Below the pieces are notes generated by a model. That model was given only the letters and a program-made list of their open reading frames with translations. It was not told where the DNA came from and did not search any database. Positions 3,202 through 19,987 of a DNA stretch of 59,573 nucleotides are shown piece after piece. How positions within the stretch are numbered: the first letter of the stretch is position 1; every line of letters starts with the position of its first letter. The stretch covers positions 1 through 59,573 of IMG/VR virus record IMGVR_UViG_3300030090_001446, one strand, 5' to 3'. The DNA comes from a virus. A program made the position numbers and the translations under genes.

Positions 3202-3230
3202 ATTATACACGTTTTTGGTGCTGATGTCAA
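3202..3230 (-). promoter_or_regulatory. Consensus late promoter for the terL operon
   Basis: Minus strand TTGACA (3225-3230), 17 bp, TATAAT (3202-3207): a perfect sigma70 consensus with optimal spacing. The sequence after the -10 (AGTATATA) is identical to that after the scaffold-gene promoter at 56719. The start site would be near 3195, giving a ~75-nt transcript up to the hairpin at 3121..3161. Confidence 0.85.
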
Positions 3231-3868: not shown

Positions 3869-3887
3869 TTTTCCGCAGTGAGGAAAA
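3869..3887 (+). promoter_or_regulatory. Leader hairpin, copy A
   Basis: TTTTCC-GCAGTGA-GGAAAA: a 6-bp stem with a 7-nt loop, 34 nt upstream of the 3922 start codon. Near-identical hairpins occur at 4599, 5682 and 6022, and a variant at 6661. This copy and the 4599 copy lack the flanking outer stem found in the other three. Confidence 0.6.
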
Positions 3888-3921
3888 CTTCGGCGCAATT
3901 CAAAATCAGGAAACACTAACA

Positions 3922-4598: not shown

Positions 4599-4617
4599 TT
4601 TTCCGCAATGAGGAAAA
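4599..4617 (+). promoter_or_regulatory. Leader hairpin, copy B
   Basis: TTTTCCGCAATGAGGAAAA: 6-bp stem, 7-nt loop, 11 nt before the start codon at 4629. The loop contains an ATG that opens an in-frame upstream start; a good AGGAGG just before 4629 argues against using it. Confidence 0.6.
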
Positions 4618-4628
4618 GTAGGAGGCAT

Positions 4629-5045
4629 ATGACATATTATCACAAGGTATCGTATGACCTAAACAAGTCGCACAGGTCTATCGTTGCCGATCGGAAGCGC
4701 GAGCCAATCACAGTTTGCGCTTCACTTAATGATGAGAAGGAAGAGGCAATCGCTATTCTTTCAGGCAATCCAGTCATGGAAAGCAAGCGCCTGGAATTAA
4801 GCAATGGCGCGTCTGATATTGATGACATAGGCGAGCTATATGCAGGAACAGCGGCAATGAAGAACCCGCGCCCATGTACGGGCAAATCGAGGGGCATTGC
4901 CAACAATAGAAAGGTAGCAAGCACGCCTCGTCGCGTGGTCATGGCTAAAGAAATGACCGCTGATAAATGGAATAAGATGACAGACAAGCAGAAAGCTAGG
5001 TTCTGTCGAAAGACAGTCAGTAACATTAGAAGGAAGAAGAAATGA
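4629..5045 (+). CDS. Unknown basic early protein
   Basis: 138 residues if started at 4629, where AGGAGG lies 3 nt upstream; an in-frame ATG at 4608 lies in the leader hairpin and is disfavoured. The protein is basic, especially at the C terminus (RRKKK end), which suggests nucleic-acid binding. No domain is recognised. Codon use is GC-richer than most of the genome. It overlaps the next gene by 4 nt, so the two are probably translated together. Confidence 0.7.
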   Translation: MTYYHKVSYDLNKSHRSIVADRKREPITVCASLNDEKEEAIAILSGNPVMESKRLELSNGASDIDDIGELYAGTAAMKNPRPCTGKSRGIANNRKVASTPRRVVMAKEMTADKWNKMTDKQKARFCRKTVSNIRRKKK

Positions 5046-5227
5046 GTTTCACCATTGAAGAAAATCCTTTTAATAATGGCAAAGAAAAAGGAGGCTACAT
5101 CATTGTAGAAAGACATCCAGGCAGCACTTTATGTCGTTTTCATGGGCCTGGGCCTGGAAAATTTTTTACAGGTAAAGGATTCGCCTCAATGAAAGAGGCA
5201 AAAGAAGTTTTGGAAAAACTGGTTTAA
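5042..5227 (+). CDS. Unknown small protein
   Basis: 61 residues, Gly- and Lys-rich with a central HGPGPGKFFTGKGF stretch and a helical C-terminal end. Its start overlaps the preceding stop by 4 nt (ATGA type). No domain is recognised. It sits between a basic unknown protein and the Csx16-like gene in the same short operon. Confidence 0.65.
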   Translation: MSFTIEENPFNNGKEKGGYIIVERHPGSTLCRFHGPGPGKFFTGKGFASMKEAKEVLEKLV

Positions 5228-5254
5228 CATACTTCAAAAGAAAGGAAGAAAGAA

Positions 5255-5662
5255 ATGAAAACAATTATAGTGACGCGCCACAAGGCGCTAGTGTCTCTCC
5301 TCATTGAGGAGGGAATAGCATCAACAGAAACGCCTGTGTTGTCCCACGTTAAGGAGGAGGATGTGAGGGATAAGCACGTAATAGGCGTGCTTCCCATGCA
5401 TCTGGCATCCGCCGCCGCTACCGTGACCGAAATTCCGCTAAATATTCCAGCGGAATTACGAGGAAAAGAGCTGAACCTTGAGCAGGTCCGACAATTCGCG
5501 GCGGAGCCTGTTACTTACTCCGTCCGAAAGGCGGAGGATGTGAAGCAGTTTGCCTACAAGGTGGGCAATACTGTTGCACAAGGAAGCGAGATTTTTCTCG
5601 CCAATGGAACGGAGGATGATATCCTCTGTTTCAACGGTCTTCCCGCACGTTGCGGGACGTAA
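5255..5662 (+). CDS. Csx16-like protein (putative ring nuclease, candidate type III anti-CRISPR)
   Basis: 135 residues. The first ~90 match, from memory, the CRISPR-associated Csx16 (VVA1548) family. The N-terminal IVTRH is followed by a short helix, a VLSHV strand, an IGVLPMHLA segment (residues ~43-51), IPLNIPAELRGKEL (~60-73) and a helix ending in a strand near 90. Csx16 proteins accompany type III CRISPR systems and have been linked to degradation of cyclic oligoadenylate signals. A phage copy, early expressed and without any CRISPR array or cas gene nearby, would most simply blunt that alarm. The C-terminal ~45 residues are an extension I do not recognise. A GGAAGAAAGAA site precedes the ATG. 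A 7-bp-stem hairpin (5641-5657) lies in the end of the gene. Confidence 0.7.
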   Translation: MKTIIVTRHKALVSLLIEEGIASTETPVLSHVKEEDVRDKHVIGVLPMHLASAAATVTEIPLNIPAELRGKELNLEQVRQFAAEPVTYSVRKAEDVKQFAYKVGNTVAQGSEIFLANGTEDDILCFNGLPARCGT

Positions 5663-5666
5663 GCCC

Positions 5667-5741
5667 AAAGAGAGGATGGAGTTTTTCGCAATGAGAAAAA
5701 CTTGTTCTCTCTTTTCATGTGCAACCAGAGAGAGAAAGACA
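5667..5741 (+). promoter_or_regulatory. Structured leader element, copy C
   Basis: An outer stem AAAGAGAGGA (5667-5676) with TTCTCTCTTT (5705-5714) encloses the hairpin TTTTTCGCAATGAGAAAAA (5682-5700). Downstream, GAGAGAGAA just before the start codon can pair instead with the TCTCTCT strand of the outer stem. The two pairings exclude each other, and one covers the only purine-rich ribosome-site candidate. Closely similar elements precede 6084 and 6721. Confidence 0.6.
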
Positions 5742-6002
5742 ATGGAAATAGATAACGTCGATCTGTGTTATAAAAACTTCACAATAAGAATAACACAACG
5801 CACAGTAACAGAAAGAGGAAAGGGCTGGTGTGGTCCTCTTGTATCGCAGGAGGTATCTATCTTAAAAGGAGAGCGTATTATTGAGGCTTGGGATGTTAGT
5901 AACGCTCGCAATTTCCAGACTGATTCTCTAATTGATATTATCAAAAAAGCAAAACAGTATATAGATGGCATTTATGCTTGGAGAAGAGAGGATAAGGTTT
6001 AA
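5742..6002 (+). CDS. Unknown small protein, paralogue 1
   Basis: 86 residues starting at the ATG after leader copy C; the longer in-frame ORF upstream reads through the leader and the Csx16-like gene and is rejected. It resembles the next protein (6084..6368): both have an early LxYKxxxIxITQ stretch, a central SIL strand and an acidic-to-helical end of the form D-x-I-x-x-x-A-K/x-A-x-x-x-I-D. The pair looks like a tandem duplication that included the leader. Function unknown. Confidence 0.65.
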   Translation: MEIDNVDLCYKNFTIRITQRTVTERGKGWCGPLVSQEVSILKGERIIEAWDVSNARNFQTDSLIDIIKKAKQYIDGIYAWRREDKV

Positions 6003-6083
6003 CATAAAAAGAGAGGATGGGTTTTCCGCAATGAGGAAAACTTGTCCTCTTTTTTCATGTGCAACCAGAGAGAGAGAAAGACA
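6003..6083 (+). promoter_or_regulatory. Structured leader element, copy D
   Basis: Outer stem 6007-6017 with 6045-6055 (11 bp, one G-U) around the hairpin TTTTCCGCAATGAGGAAAA (6022-6040), then GAGAGAGAGAAA before the ATG. Relative to copies C and E, a G-U pair is replaced by G-C and a G-C by G-U, so pairing is kept while sequence changes. Confidence 0.6.
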
Positions 6084-6628: not shown

Positions 6629-6639
6629 TAATCTGGTTT

Positions 6640-6720
6640 AACATAAAAAGAGAGGATGACTTTTTCTCATTGGGAAAAACTTGTTCTCTCTTTTCATGTG
6701 CAACCAGAGAGAGAACTATA
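6640..6720 (+). promoter_or_regulatory. Structured leader element, copy E
   Basis: Outer stem 6646-6656 with 6684-6694 (11 bp, one G-U). The inner hairpin (TTTTTC ... GAAAAA, 6661-6679) keeps its pairing although the loop differs from the other copies. GAGAGAGAA before the ATG at 6721 can pair with the TCTCTCT strand. Confidence 0.6.
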
Positions 6721-8016: not shown

Positions 8017-8299
8017 AGAAATCCAGAAAAAGTTACCTGCCCTTGGTTCAACTGATGGTCTACCACCAGACCGAATAGAAATTGTAGCTAAGTATTTTAC
8101 ACCTGATGCTAATTTTACTTGGTACGTTACAGAAGGAGAGAAAGATCGAGATGACTACCGATTGTTTGGATGGGTCGAAGGACCGTATCCAGAACTAGGT
8201 TACTTTATGCTTTCAGACTTAGAGGGTATTAGAGGACCGTTAGGTTTAAAAGTAGAACGTGATTTGTATTTCACGGCAACACTAAATGAGGTACGATAA
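8000..8299 (+). CDS. DUF2958-like protein
   Basis: 99 residues from the ATG at 8000, with AAGGAG 8 nt upstream. The sequence follows the DUF2958 pattern: an N-terminal KLMTKEIQKKLPAL segment, then VAKYFTPDANFTWY, FGWVEGPYPELGYF and LEGIRGPLGLKVERDLYF. This family is common on plasmids, integrative elements and phages and has no established activity. It overlaps the next start by one base. Confidence 0.75.
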   Translation: MKLMTKEIQKKLPALGSTDGLPPDRIEIVAKYFTPDANFTWYVTEGEKDRDDYRLFGWVEGPYPELGYFMLSDLEGIRGPLGLKVERDLYFTATLNEVR

Positions 8300-8505
8300 T
8301 GAAAATCACAATGACATCAATTCTGTCAGGTAAAACTACAACTAGAGATATAGATGTAGAGCCTGAACAGATACTGGCGTGGCAGAATGGTATGCTTATT
8401 CAAGATGCTATGCCTGAAGTATCTCCTTCGGATAGAGATTTTATCCGAGTAGGTTTAACGGAGGAAGAAACAGAGGCACTTTATCCCAATGCTAAAAACT
8501 CTTGA
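8299..8505 (+). CDS. Unknown small acidic protein
   Basis: 68 residues, acidic, no cysteine. Its start shares a base with the stop of the DUF2958-like gene and its end overlaps the methyltransferase start by 17 nt. The IDVEPEQILAWQNGMLIQDAMPEVSPSDRDFIRVGLT part resembles a small alpha/beta domain seen in other phage proteins, but I cannot name it. Confidence 0.6.
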   Translation: MKITMTSILSGKTTTRDIDVEPEQILAWQNGMLIQDAMPEVSPSDRDFIRVGLTEEETEALYPNAKNS

Positions 8506-9307
8506 ACTATTTGCAGGGATTGGAGGCTTCAGTGTGGGACTTGAACGCACTGGAGCCTTCAAGACTATTGGGTTCTGTGAGATAGACGAGCAATGTCATA
8601 AAGTTCTACGCAAGAACTGGCCTGATGTACCTATCTATACAGATGTAACAAAATTATCAGTGAAAAATTTACCTGAGATTCCTGATGTAATTACAGGTGG
8701 TTTTCCTTGTCAGGATATATCTATAGCAGGTAAAGGAGAAGGATTAGATGGTAAAAGATCAGGACTCTGGTGGGAGTTTCACAGACTTATTCGGGAATGT
8801 AATCCCAGATGGGTCATCATCGAAAACGTCGCCATGCTTCGACGTAGAGGATTGGGACAAGTGTTACGATCCCTCGCAGAGATCGGGTATGATGCAGAAT
8901 GGCATTGTATATCCGCTGGAGCCGTTGGTGCGCCTCACCAGAGGGATCGCCTCTGGATACTGGCCTACCCCAACAGTCAACGGCAACTACAATCGGAAAG
9001 GAGCAAGCAAGACATCAGGCGATGGGTTAGCAACAGCAGTATGGAACTGGCCGACTCCTCTGAGCAGGGACTACAAAGACACGGCCAAAAACTGGGAAGA
9101 CCTAGCCAAATATGCACACAAGAAACGCTTGCCCTGTTCCGTAGCAGCAGCGGAAAAGCGCAATGGGAAACTGAACCCCAGGTGGGTAGATTGGTTGATG
9201 GGATACCCCGTAGACCACACAGATTGCGACAGCTAGGTAATGCTGTCGTACCACAAATCCCTGAGTATCTAGGACAATGTATCAGGGATCAACAGAAAGG
9301 AAACTAA
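8489..9307 (+). CDS. dcm: DNA (cytosine-5) methyltransferase
   Basis: 272 residues. Transfers a methyl group from SAM to C5 of cytosine in a specific DNA site, probably protecting phage DNA from restriction or marking it. Motifs are in family order: I FAGIGGFSVG (residues ~8-17), IV GGFPCQDIS with the catalytic Cys (~70-78), VI ENV (~112), VIII QRDRLW (~151) and X GNAVVPQI near the C terminus. The variable target-recognition part is short. No partner endonuclease is evident, so it is an orphan. A second ORF (8748..9236) lies wholly inside it in the +1 frame. Confidence 0.93.
   Translation: MLKTLELFAGIGGFSVGLERTGAFKTIGFCEIDEQCHKVLRKNWPDVPIYTDVTKLSVKNLPEIPDVITGGFPCQDISIAGKGEGLDGKRSGLWWEFHRLIRECNPRWVIIENVAMLRRRGLGQVLRSLAEIGYDAEWHCISAGAVGAPHQRDRLWILAYPNSQRQLQSERSKQDIRRWVSNSSMELADSSEQGLQRHGQKLGRPSQICTQETLALFRSSSGKAQWETEPQVGRLVDGIPRRPHRLRQLGNAVVPQIPEYLGQCIRDQQKGN
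8748..9236 (+). CDS. ORF embedded in dcm in another frame, methyltransferase-associated type
   Basis: 162 codons wholly inside dcm. Its ATG has its own strong site, AAAGGAGAAGG about 7 nt upstream. The product contains segments I recall from phage proteins annotated as methyltransferase C-terminal or associated parts: a Ser-rich start, RSGMMQNGIVYPLEPLVRLT, SGYWPTPTVNGN, WPTPLSRDYKDT and GKLNPRWVDWLMGYP. The dcm frame over the same DNA is also recognisable (EPQVGRLVDGIP, GNAVVP). Two conserved-looking frames suggest genuine dual coding. Alternatively, other methyltransferases may have swapped frames here by frameshift. Function unknown. Confidence 0.5.
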   Translation: MVKDQDSGGSFTDLFGNVIPDGSSSKTSPCFDVEDWDKCYDPSQRSGMMQNGIVYPLEPLVRLTRGIASGYWPTPTVNGNYNRKGASKTSGDGLATAVWNWPTPLSRDYKDTAKNWEDLAKYAHKKRLPCSVAAAEKRNGKLNPRWVDWLMGYPVDHTDCDS

Positions 9308-9308
9308 C

Positions 9309-9506
9309 ATGTCAGCAGAAAGTAAAGTACTACGTGCATTGCGTAAGCGTAATCGAGTTACTCGCAAAACTGCAATTGAAAATGGATGGGCGGAAAACTT
9401 GACTGCTACCATCTCTCGATTGCGTAAGATGGGACATGAAATTGTACCTGTCATGGCACGTACACCAGAAGGAGAAACGTACACACGCTATCGCCTAATG
9501 GCTTAA
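9309..9506 (+). CDS. Small winged-helix/HTH protein
   Basis: 65 residues, nearly all one helix-turn-helix domain: VLRALRKRNRVTRKTAIENG, then a recognition helix TATISRLRKMGHEI and a beta-wing ending TRYRL. This matches the small phage HTH_39-type proteins. Basic and DNA-binding by inference. AGAAAGGAAAC precedes the ATG. The operator-like repeats just downstream (9541-9709) are a possible target. Confidence 0.7.
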   Translation: MSAESKVLRALRKRNRVTRKTAIENGWAENLTATISRLRKMGHEIVPVMARTPEGETYTRYRLMA

Positions 9507-9540
9507 CCTATAGACCTGGACATGTCTTTAAACTGTCCAT

Positions 9541-9709
9541 TTGTCACGGTTACAGATACGAAATTGACTCATTTATCGTATCTGTGAGAGTGCCAAAATG
9601 CTCGTAAGTAATTGAAATAATTGGACGAATAAAACCGTGACATTTCTTTGCACTATATAGAGATTAGTGTGCAATTTGTCACGGTTTTAGATACGAAACT
9701 TAATCTTTT
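9541..9709. promoter_or_regulatory. Operator-like repeat array before 9721
   Basis: Three copies of GTCACGGTT(T/A) occur: forward near 9543, inverted near 9632, forward near 9679. The two forward copies are each followed by AGATACGAAA. In addition, ACAGATACGA (9552-9561) and TCGTATCTGT (9576-9585) form a perfect 10-bp inverted repeat. The spacing and mixed orientation suggest binding sites for one of the adjacent HTH proteins. No clear consensus promoter was found inside. Confidence 0.55.
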
Positions 9710-9720
9710 GGAGAAGAACC

Positions 9721-10227
9721 ATGTTTAACTTTATGAAACTATGGAAGACTGAAGAAGAAAATAATGCGCTTGAAGTTACTCCTACTGTTACTTTAACTAG
9801 TACAGAAATTAGTAAGAAATATAATATAAATACAGGGGTTGTTACAAAAGCAAGGCAATCTCAGCGACTAAAACCTGTTGGTACTTTTCCTCATCCGATT
9901 CAAAGAAATGTCACTGCATATCTTTATGATCCTAAAGATGTGGAGAATTGGAGAGCATCTGTTAAATCTCAGAAAAAGAAAAAGAATAAAGTTAATAACT
10001 CTTTATATCCAGTAGGATCAGGATACAATACTTATCGAACAGAAGAAATTAATCAACTGATTGGCAAGCACATTCGTTTTGGTCGTTGGTCTTACTTTGA
10101 GGATTGTATTAAGATACATGCTGCTAGACAAATAGAAAATAATGAGATAAGCTGTACTTTAAGAAGCGCAATGAGAACTAACGCACTTTATTGTTTACGT
10201 GTTATTGATGCAGAAAATAAGGAGTAA
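9721..10227 (+). CDS. Putative HTH DNA-binding regulator
   Basis: 168 residues. Residues ~27-80 read like an excisionase/MerR-type helix-turn-helix: LTSTEISKKYNINTGVVTKA, then a wing ending in YLYDPKDVENW. A Lys-rich linker and an unassigned C-terminal domain follow. GGAGAAGAACC precedes the start. The repeat array immediately upstream suggests it may regulate itself. A role in the early-to-middle switch is inference. Confidence 0.6.
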   Translation: MFNFMKLWKTEEENNALEVTPTVTLTSTEISKKYNINTGVVTKARQSQRLKPVGTFPHPIQRNVTAYLYDPKDVENWRASVKSQKKKKNKVNNSLYPVGSGYNTYRTEEINQLIGKHIRFGRWSYFEDCIKIHAARQIENNEISCTLRSAMRTNALYCLRVIDAENKE

Positions 10228-10232
10228 AGAAA

Positions 10233-10493
10233 ATGAATATCATACATGTCAATGACAAGCCCTGGAATTATACAGTAATTCCTCAAGCAGTAAGTCAGAA
10301 TGATGATCTTATTCATAACTTACGAACTATTCATCTGTTAGATGGGACAGTACATATACAAGAAGTTCGTTTACCTAATCAGATATTTCTTAGAGGAGGT
10401 ATCTGTCATCAGTATGGAGTAAAGTATCAAGTTAAAGTTGATGAAATCAAATGTCCTACTTGTGGAACATTGCCTAAAAATATACGGAGATAG
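10233..10493 (+). CDS. Unknown protein with C-terminal zinc ribbon
   Basis: 86 residues, beta-rich, with C..H in GGICHQYG and CPTCG near the end, a likely zinc-binding pair. AAGGAGTAAAGAA precedes the start. Function unknown. Confidence 0.6.
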   Translation: MNIIHVNDKPWNYTVIPQAVSQNDDLIHNLRTIHLLDGTVHIQEVRLPNQIFLRGGICHQYGVKYQVKVDEIKCPTCGTLPKNIRR

Positions 10494-10511
10494 TTACTGG
10501 AGTAAAGAAAG

Positions 10512-10760
10512 ATGAAGAAAATAATCCATGTTAATCAACATGTGATAAAAGCTAATCGTAAGAATGACACAAGAAAACCACCACTAACCTGTAAGACCAG
10601 CAAAGATAATATCTATGCTAAAGATATTATTATTGATGGACCCTGCCGAATACGATATAGTCCAGATAAACCGCTATCCTGTGGCGCTCATGTTTGGATT
10701 GAAACAGATAGTGAGATTGTAGTTGTTGGTAAAGCATACCAATGGAAGGAACTAGTTTAA
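10512..10760 (+). CDS. Unknown small basic protein
   Basis: 82 residues, basic N-terminal half and a beta-rich C-terminal half with three cysteines. GGAGTAAAGAAAG precedes the start. Its stop overlaps the next start by one base. Not recognised. Confidence 0.55.
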   Translation: MKKIIHVNQHVIKANRKNDTRKPPLTCKTSKDNIYAKDIIIDGPCRIRYSPDKPLSCGAHVWIETDSEIVVVGKAYQWKELV

Positions 10761-10978
10761 TGAAAAAGTATCAAGTGACAGTGTATCGTACTGTTCAACA
10801 GAGTGCGACTGTCATGATTGAAAGTGACAGAGAACTAAACGCTTCTGAAATAGAATACATTCGTACAAAGGCAGAAGATGAAGCAGGTGAACTGTCTGAT
10901 TACGATTGGAAGTATGAAGAAGTAGATGACAAAGTAGATGTAACAATCTATGATGGTAATGAATACTATCTTACGTAA
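10760..10978 (+). CDS. Unknown small acidic protein
   Basis: 72 residues from the ATG at 10760 (GGAAGGA about 10 nt upstream), preferred over an in-frame ATG at 10742 inside the previous gene. Beta-alpha-beta pattern: YQVTVYRTVQQSATVMI strand pair, a helix rich in Glu, then an acidic strand. Not recognised. Confidence 0.55.
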   Translation: MKKYQVTVYRTVQQSATVMIESDRELNASEIEYIRTKAEDEAGELSDYDWKYEEVDDKVDVTIYDGNEYYLT

Positions 10979-10990
10979 AGGATACATGAG

Positions 10991-11680
10991 ATGACTACAA
11001 CTACAGAACTAAACGATCTAATTCGCTGGCGTGAAGACATAGGACAGTTCGCTATTGACCGTCCTATTAATGACACTAAGAACCATCAAGGATCATGTAT
11101 ACACAAGACAGAGTTTTGTAATATAACTTGTTACAACAATAAGTTATACAAACTCTATCCCAAGATGCATGATCGAGATGATAGAGTAGAAAGTATCTGG
11201 CAGAATCTTGATCCTCTTTCCATTAAACCTTTCCTTCAGCGTAAGCGTAAGCAAACCAAACGGGTGCGCTTCATGACTAGAGGCGAGGCGTTTGCCACAT
11301 GGTCTGATGTACTCAAGGTCAAAGCTATCCTGGAAGATAACCCAGATACTCAATGGTGGATACCTACTAGAGCATGGCGTGAGCCTATCTTAAAGAAATT
11401 AATTGAAGAAATGATAGTGCCATTAAAGAATGCAGCAGTTAATGCTAGTGTTGATCCATCTAATACTAAAGATGATTGGCAAATGTTACGATCAGATAAA
11501 TGGAACGTGATGTTCTATGGAGATGAAGACTTGACTATCGTTCCAGACTCTGATATAAAAATGTTCTTGTGTCCCAAGACACATAAGAAACTGAAAGGAC
11601 ATTGCGATGTTTGTAAAGCTGGATGCTTTAGTCCATCAACTTTACAACGTCAACAATTCGTACATCTCTCACAACATTAG
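10991..11680 (+). CDS. GP88-like phage protein, tentative
   Basis: 229 residues. The N-terminal third has a cysteine cluster (SCIHKTEFCNITCYNNKLY) reminiscent of the phage gene-product-88 family, in which a C-x(n)-C-x3-CY cluster precedes an alpha/beta core. RVRFMTRGEAF and WWIPTRAWR follow in the core. The C-terminal end has a second cysteine set (C-P-K-T-H, C-D-V-C, C). A metal or iron-sulphur cofactor is plausible. Activity unknown. Confidence 0.5.
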   Translation: MTTTTELNDLIRWREDIGQFAIDRPINDTKNHQGSCIHKTEFCNITCYNNKLYKLYPKMHDRDDRVESIWQNLDPLSIKPFLQRKRKQTKRVRFMTRGEAFATWSDVLKVKAILEDNPDTQWWIPTRAWREPILKKLIEEMIVPLKNAAVNASVDPSNTKDDWQMLRSDKWNVMFYGDEDLTIVPDSDIKMFLCPKTHKKLKGHCDVCKAGCFSPSTLQRQQFVHLSQH

Positions 11681-18719: not shown

Positions 18720-19589
18720 ATGAAATCAATAGACACATTAGTGAATGATATTTACTCTTTGTTTGAATCTTCTGTTCCTGATATGGAAGATAATGAAGTA
18801 GATATTATTATTGATAAGTTTGGAGATGCTTTAAAAGTTCATCTTAAAAAGTTTATCTATGAAGAAGAACGTAGGAGAGACTCTCTTAGACTATCTGCTA
18901 TAGGTAAACCTGAACGTCAACAATGGTATTCTGCTTCACCTCATTCTAATGTTAAGGAAACACTACAGCTTCAAGGAAAAGATAAGATTAAATTTTTATA
19001 TGGTTATATTTTAGAAGAGCTGCTACTTACTTTATCTTCCTTAGCAGGACATAAAGTTTCTGATGAGCAGAAGGAAGTTCAGATAGAAGGAATTAAAGGA
19101 CATCAGGATGCTATTATTGATGATGTTCTTGTTGATTGTAAATCAGCATCAGGTAAAGGATTTGATAAGTTTAAAAATAATTATGTATCTGTTGATGATC
19201 CTTTTGGTTATATCGCACAGATATCTTCTTATGCAGAAGCTAATGGTTTAGATCAAGCTGCTTTCTTGGCTATCAATAAACAAACAGGAGAGATATGTTT
19301 ATCTAAAGTTCACTCAATGGAAATGATTAATGCTAAAGAACGTGTTAAATATATTAAAGATGTGGTTAATCAATCTACTCCACCAGCTAAGTGCTATCCT
19401 GATGTTCCTGATGGTAAGTCTGGGAACCGCAAGCTGGATATTGGTTGCATATACTGTGATTATAAGCGTGATTGTTGGAAGGATGCTAATAATGGTCAAG
19501 GATTACGTGTGTTTGATTATGCAACAAACCCTCGCTATCTTACGCAAGTTTCTAAGATGCCTAACGTAGAAGAAATTCTGGATTGGTGA
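18720..19589 (+). CDS. PD-(D/E)XK exonuclease (RecB/Cas4-like)
   Basis: 289 residues. Motif II/III of the nuclease core: IKGHQDAIIDDVLVDCKSASGKGF (D, D-C-K at ~137-143), preceded by a conserved-looking LRLSAIGKPERQQWY. A C-terminal CIYCDYKRDCW cysteine set recalls the iron-sulphur-bound C terminus of Cas4/AddB-type nucleases. A role in host DNA breakdown or recombination (T7 gp6-like place) is likely. The ATG directly follows a terminator T-tract with no ribosome site, so initiation is unusual, or an internal start is used. Confidence 0.8.
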   Translation: MKSIDTLVNDIYSLFESSVPDMEDNEVDIIIDKFGDALKVHLKKFIYEEERRRDSLRLSAIGKPERQQWYSASPHSNVKETLQLQGKDKIKFLYGYILEELLLTLSSLAGHKVSDEQKEVQIEGIKGHQDAIIDDVLVDCKSASGKGFDKFKNNYVSVDDPFGYIAQISSYAEANGLDQAAFLAINKQTGEICLSKVHSMEMINAKERVKYIKDVVNQSTPPAKCYPDVPDGKSGNRKLDIGCIYCDYKRDCWKDANNGQGLRVFDYATNPRYLTQVSKMPNVEEILDW

Positions 19590-19987
19590 TGCATTGGAAA
19601 TTTGTAGGTAAACCTGACATTGAAAATAAGTTTGGATTTGTTTACATCATTACAAATAAAAAAACAGGCAAAGCTTATATAGGATGTAAACAATATTGGC
19701 ATTATAAGAAAGGAAAAAAAGACAAACAATCCAATTGGAAAGTTTATAAAGGTTCTTCTAAATCATTAACAGAAGATATAAAAAAATTAGGTAAAAGAAA
19801 TTTTAAATTTGAAATGCTGGCTGAGTATAAAAATAAAAGAAGCTTGAGATATTATGAATGTTATTATCAAATGAAATATAATGTATTAGCTTCTGTATTA
19901 GAAGGAACCGATGAGCCAGCATTTTATAACAATTATGTAGGAGGTAAATGGTATAGACCAGTAGAAAGTTATGAACCAGAATTATAG
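19589..19987 (+). CDS. GIY-YIG endonuclease-like protein
   Basis: 132 residues from the ATG at 19589, overlapping the previous stop (TGATG). FGFVYIITNKKTGKAYIG gives the GIY-YIG motif (here FVY...YIG), then WKVYKGSSKSL, NFKFEMLAEY and an E-C-Y-Y-Q helix holding the usual catalytic Glu. It could be a homing-type nuclease or a repair/junction nuclease, but it is not inside another gene. Confidence 0.75.
   Translation: MHWKFVGKPDIENKFGFVYIITNKKTGKAYIGCKQYWHYKKGKKDKQSNWKVYKGSSKSLTEDIKKLGKRNFKFEMLAEYKNKRSLRYYECYYQMKYNVLASVLEGTDEPAFYNNYVGGKWYRPVESYEPEL

Follow-up and report, generated by a model that had tools for sequence, protein, structure and literature searches.

Csx16 is an ancillary protein of type III CRISPR systems. 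The preliminary description of the locus treated here tied it in general terms to the removal of cyclic oligoadenylates, and this can now be put more sharply. Cellular Csx16 was described in 2025 as a ring nuclease that is specific for cA4 and active in EDTA, and it was modelled as a CARF-like dimer (PMC12409355). Csx16 in a phage is not new in kind because the same study had already reported two phage copies, in a survey of 28,114 phage genomes that contained AcrIII-1 in 36 cases (PMC12409355).

Here we describe a stand-alone phage-borne Csx16-like protein and the large, mostly viral branch of the family to which it belongs. The window, as we call the whole stretch of DNA that was analysed, is a virus record of 59.6 kb and a contig of a tailed phage. 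It encodes a terminase, a portal protein, a Toprim/DnaB primase-helicase, a family A polymerase, a thymidylate synthase and a ribonucleotide reductase, a gene set that bears out the placement of this csx16 copy in a phage. The best matches suggest a distant HMO-2011/HTVC-type phage, because the terminase is 40% identical to that of Pelagibacter phage HTVC027P and the ribonucleotide reductase, which is of the B12-dependent type, is 66% identical to the enzyme of Puniceispirillum phage HMO-2011. Searches of the window for a type III RAMP gene and for a CRISPR-like array found none, as would be expected of a viral copy and in agreement with the earlier statement that no type III cas gene or array lies nearby. 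An Rfam scan of the window returned zero RNA families.

Three other features of the window are recorded here in their own right. A C5-cytosine methylase gene (8489-9307) lies near csx16, as is also the case in L016, L089 and L120, the four being otherwise unrelated viral records; it is perhaps a second anti-defence gene. The protein encoded at 28779-29225 matches a PHROG family annotated as cysteine dioxygenase (E 1.1e-12) and is a possible auxiliary metabolic gene product. A perfect sigma-70 consensus promoter (TTGACA, 17 nt, TATAAT) is located on the minus strand at 3202-3230, upstream of the terminase gene.

Table 1. Features of the csx16 locus in the window
Feature	Coordinates	Strand	Description
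csx16-like gene	5255..5662	+	Intact ORF, 135 codons/135 aa; Csx16 core = residues 1-94 (5255-5536)
C-terminal tail of Csx16-like protein	5537..5659	+	~41-42 residues, no recognised domain
138-aa gene upstream of csx16, presumed same operon	4629..5045	+	No known family; conserved in relatives without csx16
61-aa gene upstream of csx16, presumed same operon	5042..5227	+	Overlaps the 4629..5045 gene by ATGA; no known family
Hairpin/terminator-like repeat copy closing the csx16 operon	5656..5735	+	Repeat family D1; fold z-score -3.65
Hairpin repeat TTTTCCGCAATGAGGAAAA just 5' of the operon	4599..4617	+	Repeat family, fold analysis
Segment missing from close relative L174, holding csx16	5238..5666	+	Empty-site alignment

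The product of the csx16-like gene (Table 1) was compared with existing models of the family. Its match to PF09652 (Csx16), the profile named in the preliminary description, is well above the Pfam cut-off of 25 bits (63.5 bits, E 2.1e-17) and runs over the whole domain (residues 5-90; profile positions 2-90 of 91). The PADLOC Csx16 model matches with E 1.3e-17. All of the residues that are invariant or near-invariant in the family are kept. In an alignment of 81 Csx16 sequences H9, G44, P47, G70 and E72 are identical in 81/81, R8, L46 and L73 in 79/81, and H31, L50 and R69 in 77/81. The sequence motifs by which the protein was first recognised are all present and fall on conserved Csx16 columns. 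The profile score and these residues establish the ORF as Csx16, and the observation of a phage-borne Csx16-like protein is confirmed. The protein scores 25.2 bits with NCBIfam TIGR02620 and its core alone 26.7, both below the equivalog cut-off of 46.35 bits; a CRISPR-linked Csx16 copy scores 124.5. None of the PHROG families matches it. DUF1874 is absent, as a Pfam scan of the protein to E 10 returned PF09652 and an insignificant Hen1_LCD match only.

A scan of IMG/VR with the single window protein gave no relatives, and these were then found by alignment-based searches. An alignment with plasmid homologues matched 14 IMG/VR contigs and 20 genome contigs, and refined alignments brought the viral Csx16 set to more than 50. 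A motif of the CRISPR-linked Csx16 branch matched zero viral loci. The tree of 81 core Csx16 sequences is split, with support of 100/100, into a mobile branch and CRISPR-linked Csx16. The mobile branch contains 52 viral members (window included), three plasmid copies (Deinococcus, Meiothermus and Paenibacillus) and four copies from MAG/genome contigs. On the other side of the split are 16 chromosomal copies, three plasmid copies, Methanobacterium virus Drs3 and two viral contigs; most deeper forks of the tree are not resolved, and the placement of the long rows (Drs3, L023 and the Paenibacillus copy) is unsure. By sequence, the nearest relatives of the window copy are viral and not from CRISPR loci.

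The two branches are homologous in a profile-profile comparison (99.5%, E 2e-23). The window protein shares about 31-36% identity with CRISPR-linked copies, and an insert of ~4 residues before a YxHL-like strand, present in the CRISPR-linked branch, is missing from the mobile branch in the alignment. Mobile-branch hits outnumber others 13 to 1 among viral contigs and are outnumbered 4 to 16 among genomes (Fisher p 6e-5) in searches that used one alignment and almost identical patterns for both collections; the absolute hit numbers are biased because the patterns were derived from the window and three plasmid sequences, but this bias by itself does not explain the contrast between viruses and genomes. 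In a cultured-phage collection of 50,697 records no mobile-branch csx16 was found. The only tblastn match there was Methanobacterium virus Drs3, in two records of one virus, and these may be the 'two genomes' of PMC12409355. Extra cellular copies were sought in Deinococcota, in the phylum of AUK090 and in Bacteroidota, with little added. The mobile branch is large, mostly viral, mostly unannotated and largely missed by surveys.

The depth of the split, the low TIGR02620 score of the window copy and the missing insert could also be read as signs of a change of ligand, for example to the CBASS signal cA3, which would make mobile-branch Csx16 an anti-CBASS or broad anti-signalling protein. There is a parallel in Crn4, an unrelated ring nuclease that has members in phages and accepts a broad range of ligands (PMC12830947). 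We consider such a change unlikely, as the assayed cellular Csx16 is cA4-specific (PMC12409355) and the same conserved residues are found in both branches. Viral Csx16 might alternatively be a sponge that binds and sequesters cA4 without cutting it, in the manner of the non-enzymatic cA4-sequestering members of Csx15, which belongs to the same broad fold group (PMC13148439). This is very unlikely, given that the assayed cellular Csx16 is a true enzyme (PMC12409355) and that the histidine H9, found in all sequences of the alignment, occupies the loop that follows strand 1, the site of the catalytic H13 in Csx15. By analogy with that residue, H9 is the putative catalytic residue of the window protein.

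Duplicated Csx16-domain proteins, in tandem or divergent, were observed in L004 (2992-3777), L027 (5992-6780), L024 (4985-5974), L093 (5520-6302) and L025 (481-1017). Their carriers are plasmids, one prophage-like contig and one viral contig. Some of the invariant residues are lost in the second copies, which may act as sponges or decoys.

The core of the window protein (residues 1-94) is modelled by AlphaFold2 with a mean pLDDT of 96.6, and in the tail pLDDT is below 50 from residue 99. Comparison of the model with solved ring nucleases, which had been put forward as a check, brought no corroboration: Foldseek searches with the full and core models against the PDB and viral models gave no match at E <= 0.001. 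AcrIII-2 (9r8s) appears in the lists at E 0.69 and above, which is insignificant and no evidence of kinship. Sequence matches in the PDB, mostly to DARPins, were rejected as chance matches to one common short stretch.

No Pfam family matched the last ~42 residues, and phmmer found no match between the tail and other frames in Csx16 loci. The preliminary description was right that the C-terminal ~45 residues are unrecognised. It also held that they make the protein a distinct version, and this part did not stand. The tail is not a diagnostic domain because Csx16 relatives either end near residue 95 or continue into tails that are unrelated and reach about 150 residues. As a defining domain it was rejected, being variable in length and unrelated even among close viral kin. 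The distinguishing mark of the window version, as read from the tree, is instead its membership of the virus-dominated Csx16 branch.

The genomic context of the two branches was compared. The RAMP search covered the viral records of 57 relatives, 55 of which belong to the mobile branch, and in these 55 there was no type III RAMP gene above cut-off (0/55). The sole sub-threshold hit belongs to record L010 and corresponds to Csf2 in a type IV cluster. RAMP genes are likewise absent from the mobile-branch cellular contigs (0/4). They do occur on other contigs in three of the genomes to which these contigs belong, and hosts of this kind thus contain possible targets. Of the 16 chromosomal copies in the other branch, at least 9 are 0.4-4.5 kb from RAMP genes, as checked frame by frame.

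Two viral contigs raise the question of whether viral Csx16 serves the phage or element itself, in regulating an element-borne CRISPR system or in inter-phage competition, rather than in disarming the host. L010 (IMG/VR contig 3300037424_001387) is a phage contig with a terminase; its mobile-branch csx16, which encodes a tail of 140 residues, and a type IV-B-like cluster (8059-11418; Csf1, Csf2, Csf3 and CysH-like) are 2.3 kb apart. L023 (record G014, 19127-19831) is likewise a viral contig that has a terminase; its record also holds a RAMP-family gene, and its Csx16 falls outside the mobile branch. L023 is possibly a virus, or a misclassified element, with part of a type III system. A role of this kind is highly improbable. 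No RAMP hit whatever was obtained in the window and in 54 of the 55 mobile-branch viral records, and we know of no type IV system that makes cyclic oligoadenylates, which also counts against it. An apparent CRISPR-like array in the L014 record was rejected as a low-complexity repeat.

A terminase was identified with two models in 31 of the 55 mobile-branch viral records, many of which are fragments. A recurrent adjacency of csx16 and terminase was rejected, as coordinates compared by hand gave no evident enrichment in records >20 kb. The only real gene family common to more than four of 53 mobile-branch viral neighbourhoods is csx16, and some of the smaller groups are antisense frames of csx16 itself. 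Among the genes of the window only csx16 and a few generic enzymes recur in other records. It is therefore the gene, not the phage, that connects the mobile-branch records. Across the five viral or mobile pairs for which dN/dS could be measured it is 0.06-0.18, and by this measure mobile-branch csx16 is under purifying selection.

Repeats of up to 80 nt around the hairpin TTTTCCGCAATGAGGAAAA are located between the left-hand genes of the window (3869-3890, 4599-4620, 5656-5735, 5996-6075 and 6635-6714). The hairpin has eight matches on both strands of the window, against 0.03 expected. Three of the repeat copies are within long terminator-like hairpins (fold z -3.6 to -8.4), which are followed by a common leader. 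Relatives that share some of these repeats hold different genes between them, which suggests that the left-hand repeat region is a gene-exchange locus.

Eighty relatives of the window terminase were fetched. The gene is absent from all seven of the relatives with terminases 95-99% identical that span its position (L165, L166, L167, L170, L172, L174 and L175). In L174 a homologue of the 61-aa gene (87% identical) abuts the hairpin repeat that is found 3' of csx16 in the window, and the missing segment listed in Table 1 is therefore a precise single-gene difference. The GC3 of csx16 is 0.551, the top value of the 54 window genes (mean 0.228, sd 0.106). The likeliest reading of these sequence patterns is that csx16 is a recently gained cargo gene in the variable left-hand region of the window phage. 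Judged from gene position only, it would be expressed early. The closest relatives, L165, L167 and L172 (flank DNA identity up to 97%), have a different left-hand island without the hairpin repeats (L165 871-1401; L167 653-1141; in L172 before the terminase), in which one protein of 155-177 residues and no known family replaces the genes of the window.

Odd GC content and absence from near relatives point to recent gain, and use is not thereby proven; the gene could be a mere passenger, a piece of some host CRISPR locus that was picked up recently and has no present function. That explanation is barely credible in view of more than 50 related viral copies with intact conserved residues, a dN/dS well below 1, an intact ORF, and closest relatives that are viral rather than from CRISPR loci.

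We therefore favour as likely the explanation that viral Csx16 cuts the cA4 made by host type III CRISPR systems and is carried as exchangeable phage cargo. For the window protein itself the best-supported reading is that it is probably an anti-type-III-CRISPR protein. It would be a small CARF-like ring nuclease, probably a homodimer, and the dimer would bind the cA4 that Cas10 of the type III system produces in the infected cell. Presumably through a cA4-specific activity, it would cut cA4 to linear products, and with cA4 removed the cA4-activated type III effectors would stay off. In the variable left-hand region of the phage, csx16 would be cargo that can be exchanged. The ligand specificity could differ from that of cellular Csx16 because of the modest identity, the TIGR02620 score below cut-off and the missing insert. 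That seven close relatives lack the gene also counts against this reading. Caution on the anti-CRISPR role is also warranted because that of AcrIII-1 at native expression is itself contested, in an exchange cited in PMC12751052.

The interest of these results lies less in the single gene of the window than in the large viral Csx16 branch reached through it. If its proteins act against cA4, a branch with more than 50 viral members would place Csx16 among the more frequent means by which viruses counter cA4 signalling. Its members are a set of proteins at hand for asking whether ring nucleases are tuned (ligand, rate, tails) differently by phages and by cells. The branch is also relevant to the current dispute about native viral ring nucleases as anti-CRISPRs, because the phage lineage of the window offers natural pairs with and without csx16. 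A bolder proposal, which we make tentatively and hold to be somewhat doubtful, is that the mobile branch is a further major kind of viral ring nuclease. On this view a widespread lineage of phage Csx16 would have a biochemistry of its own (an altered or broadened ligand range, or faster turnover), would be passed as single-gene anti-defence cargo between unrelated phages and would have gone unnoticed because its scores fall below the cut-offs of annotation models.

Among the known systems AcrIII-2/Crn5 (vSAVED) is also viral, was scavenged from a type III CRISPR component and degrades cA4 (PMC12751052), but it is a SAVED protein of 230 residues. AcrIII-1/Crn2 (DUF1874) is a viral cA4 ring nuclease, a proposed anti-CRISPR and a small CARF-like dimer, but it belongs to a sequence family other than Csx16. 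Its resemblance to Csx16 is in structure only (DALI Z 4.8 to 2J6B; PMC12409355), and Foldseek did not reproduce it here. Methanobacterium virus Drs3 likewise has a stand-alone Csx16 in a tailed virus; this copy is 30-35% identical to that of the window, and the tree puts it outside the mobile branch, on a long branch that is not securely placed. Cellular Csx16 (PF09652/TIGR02620) has the same domain over its whole length and the same invariant residues as the window protein, which differs from it in forming part of a separate branch (100/100), in standing alone in a phage, in its tail and in lacking the insert of ~4 residues.
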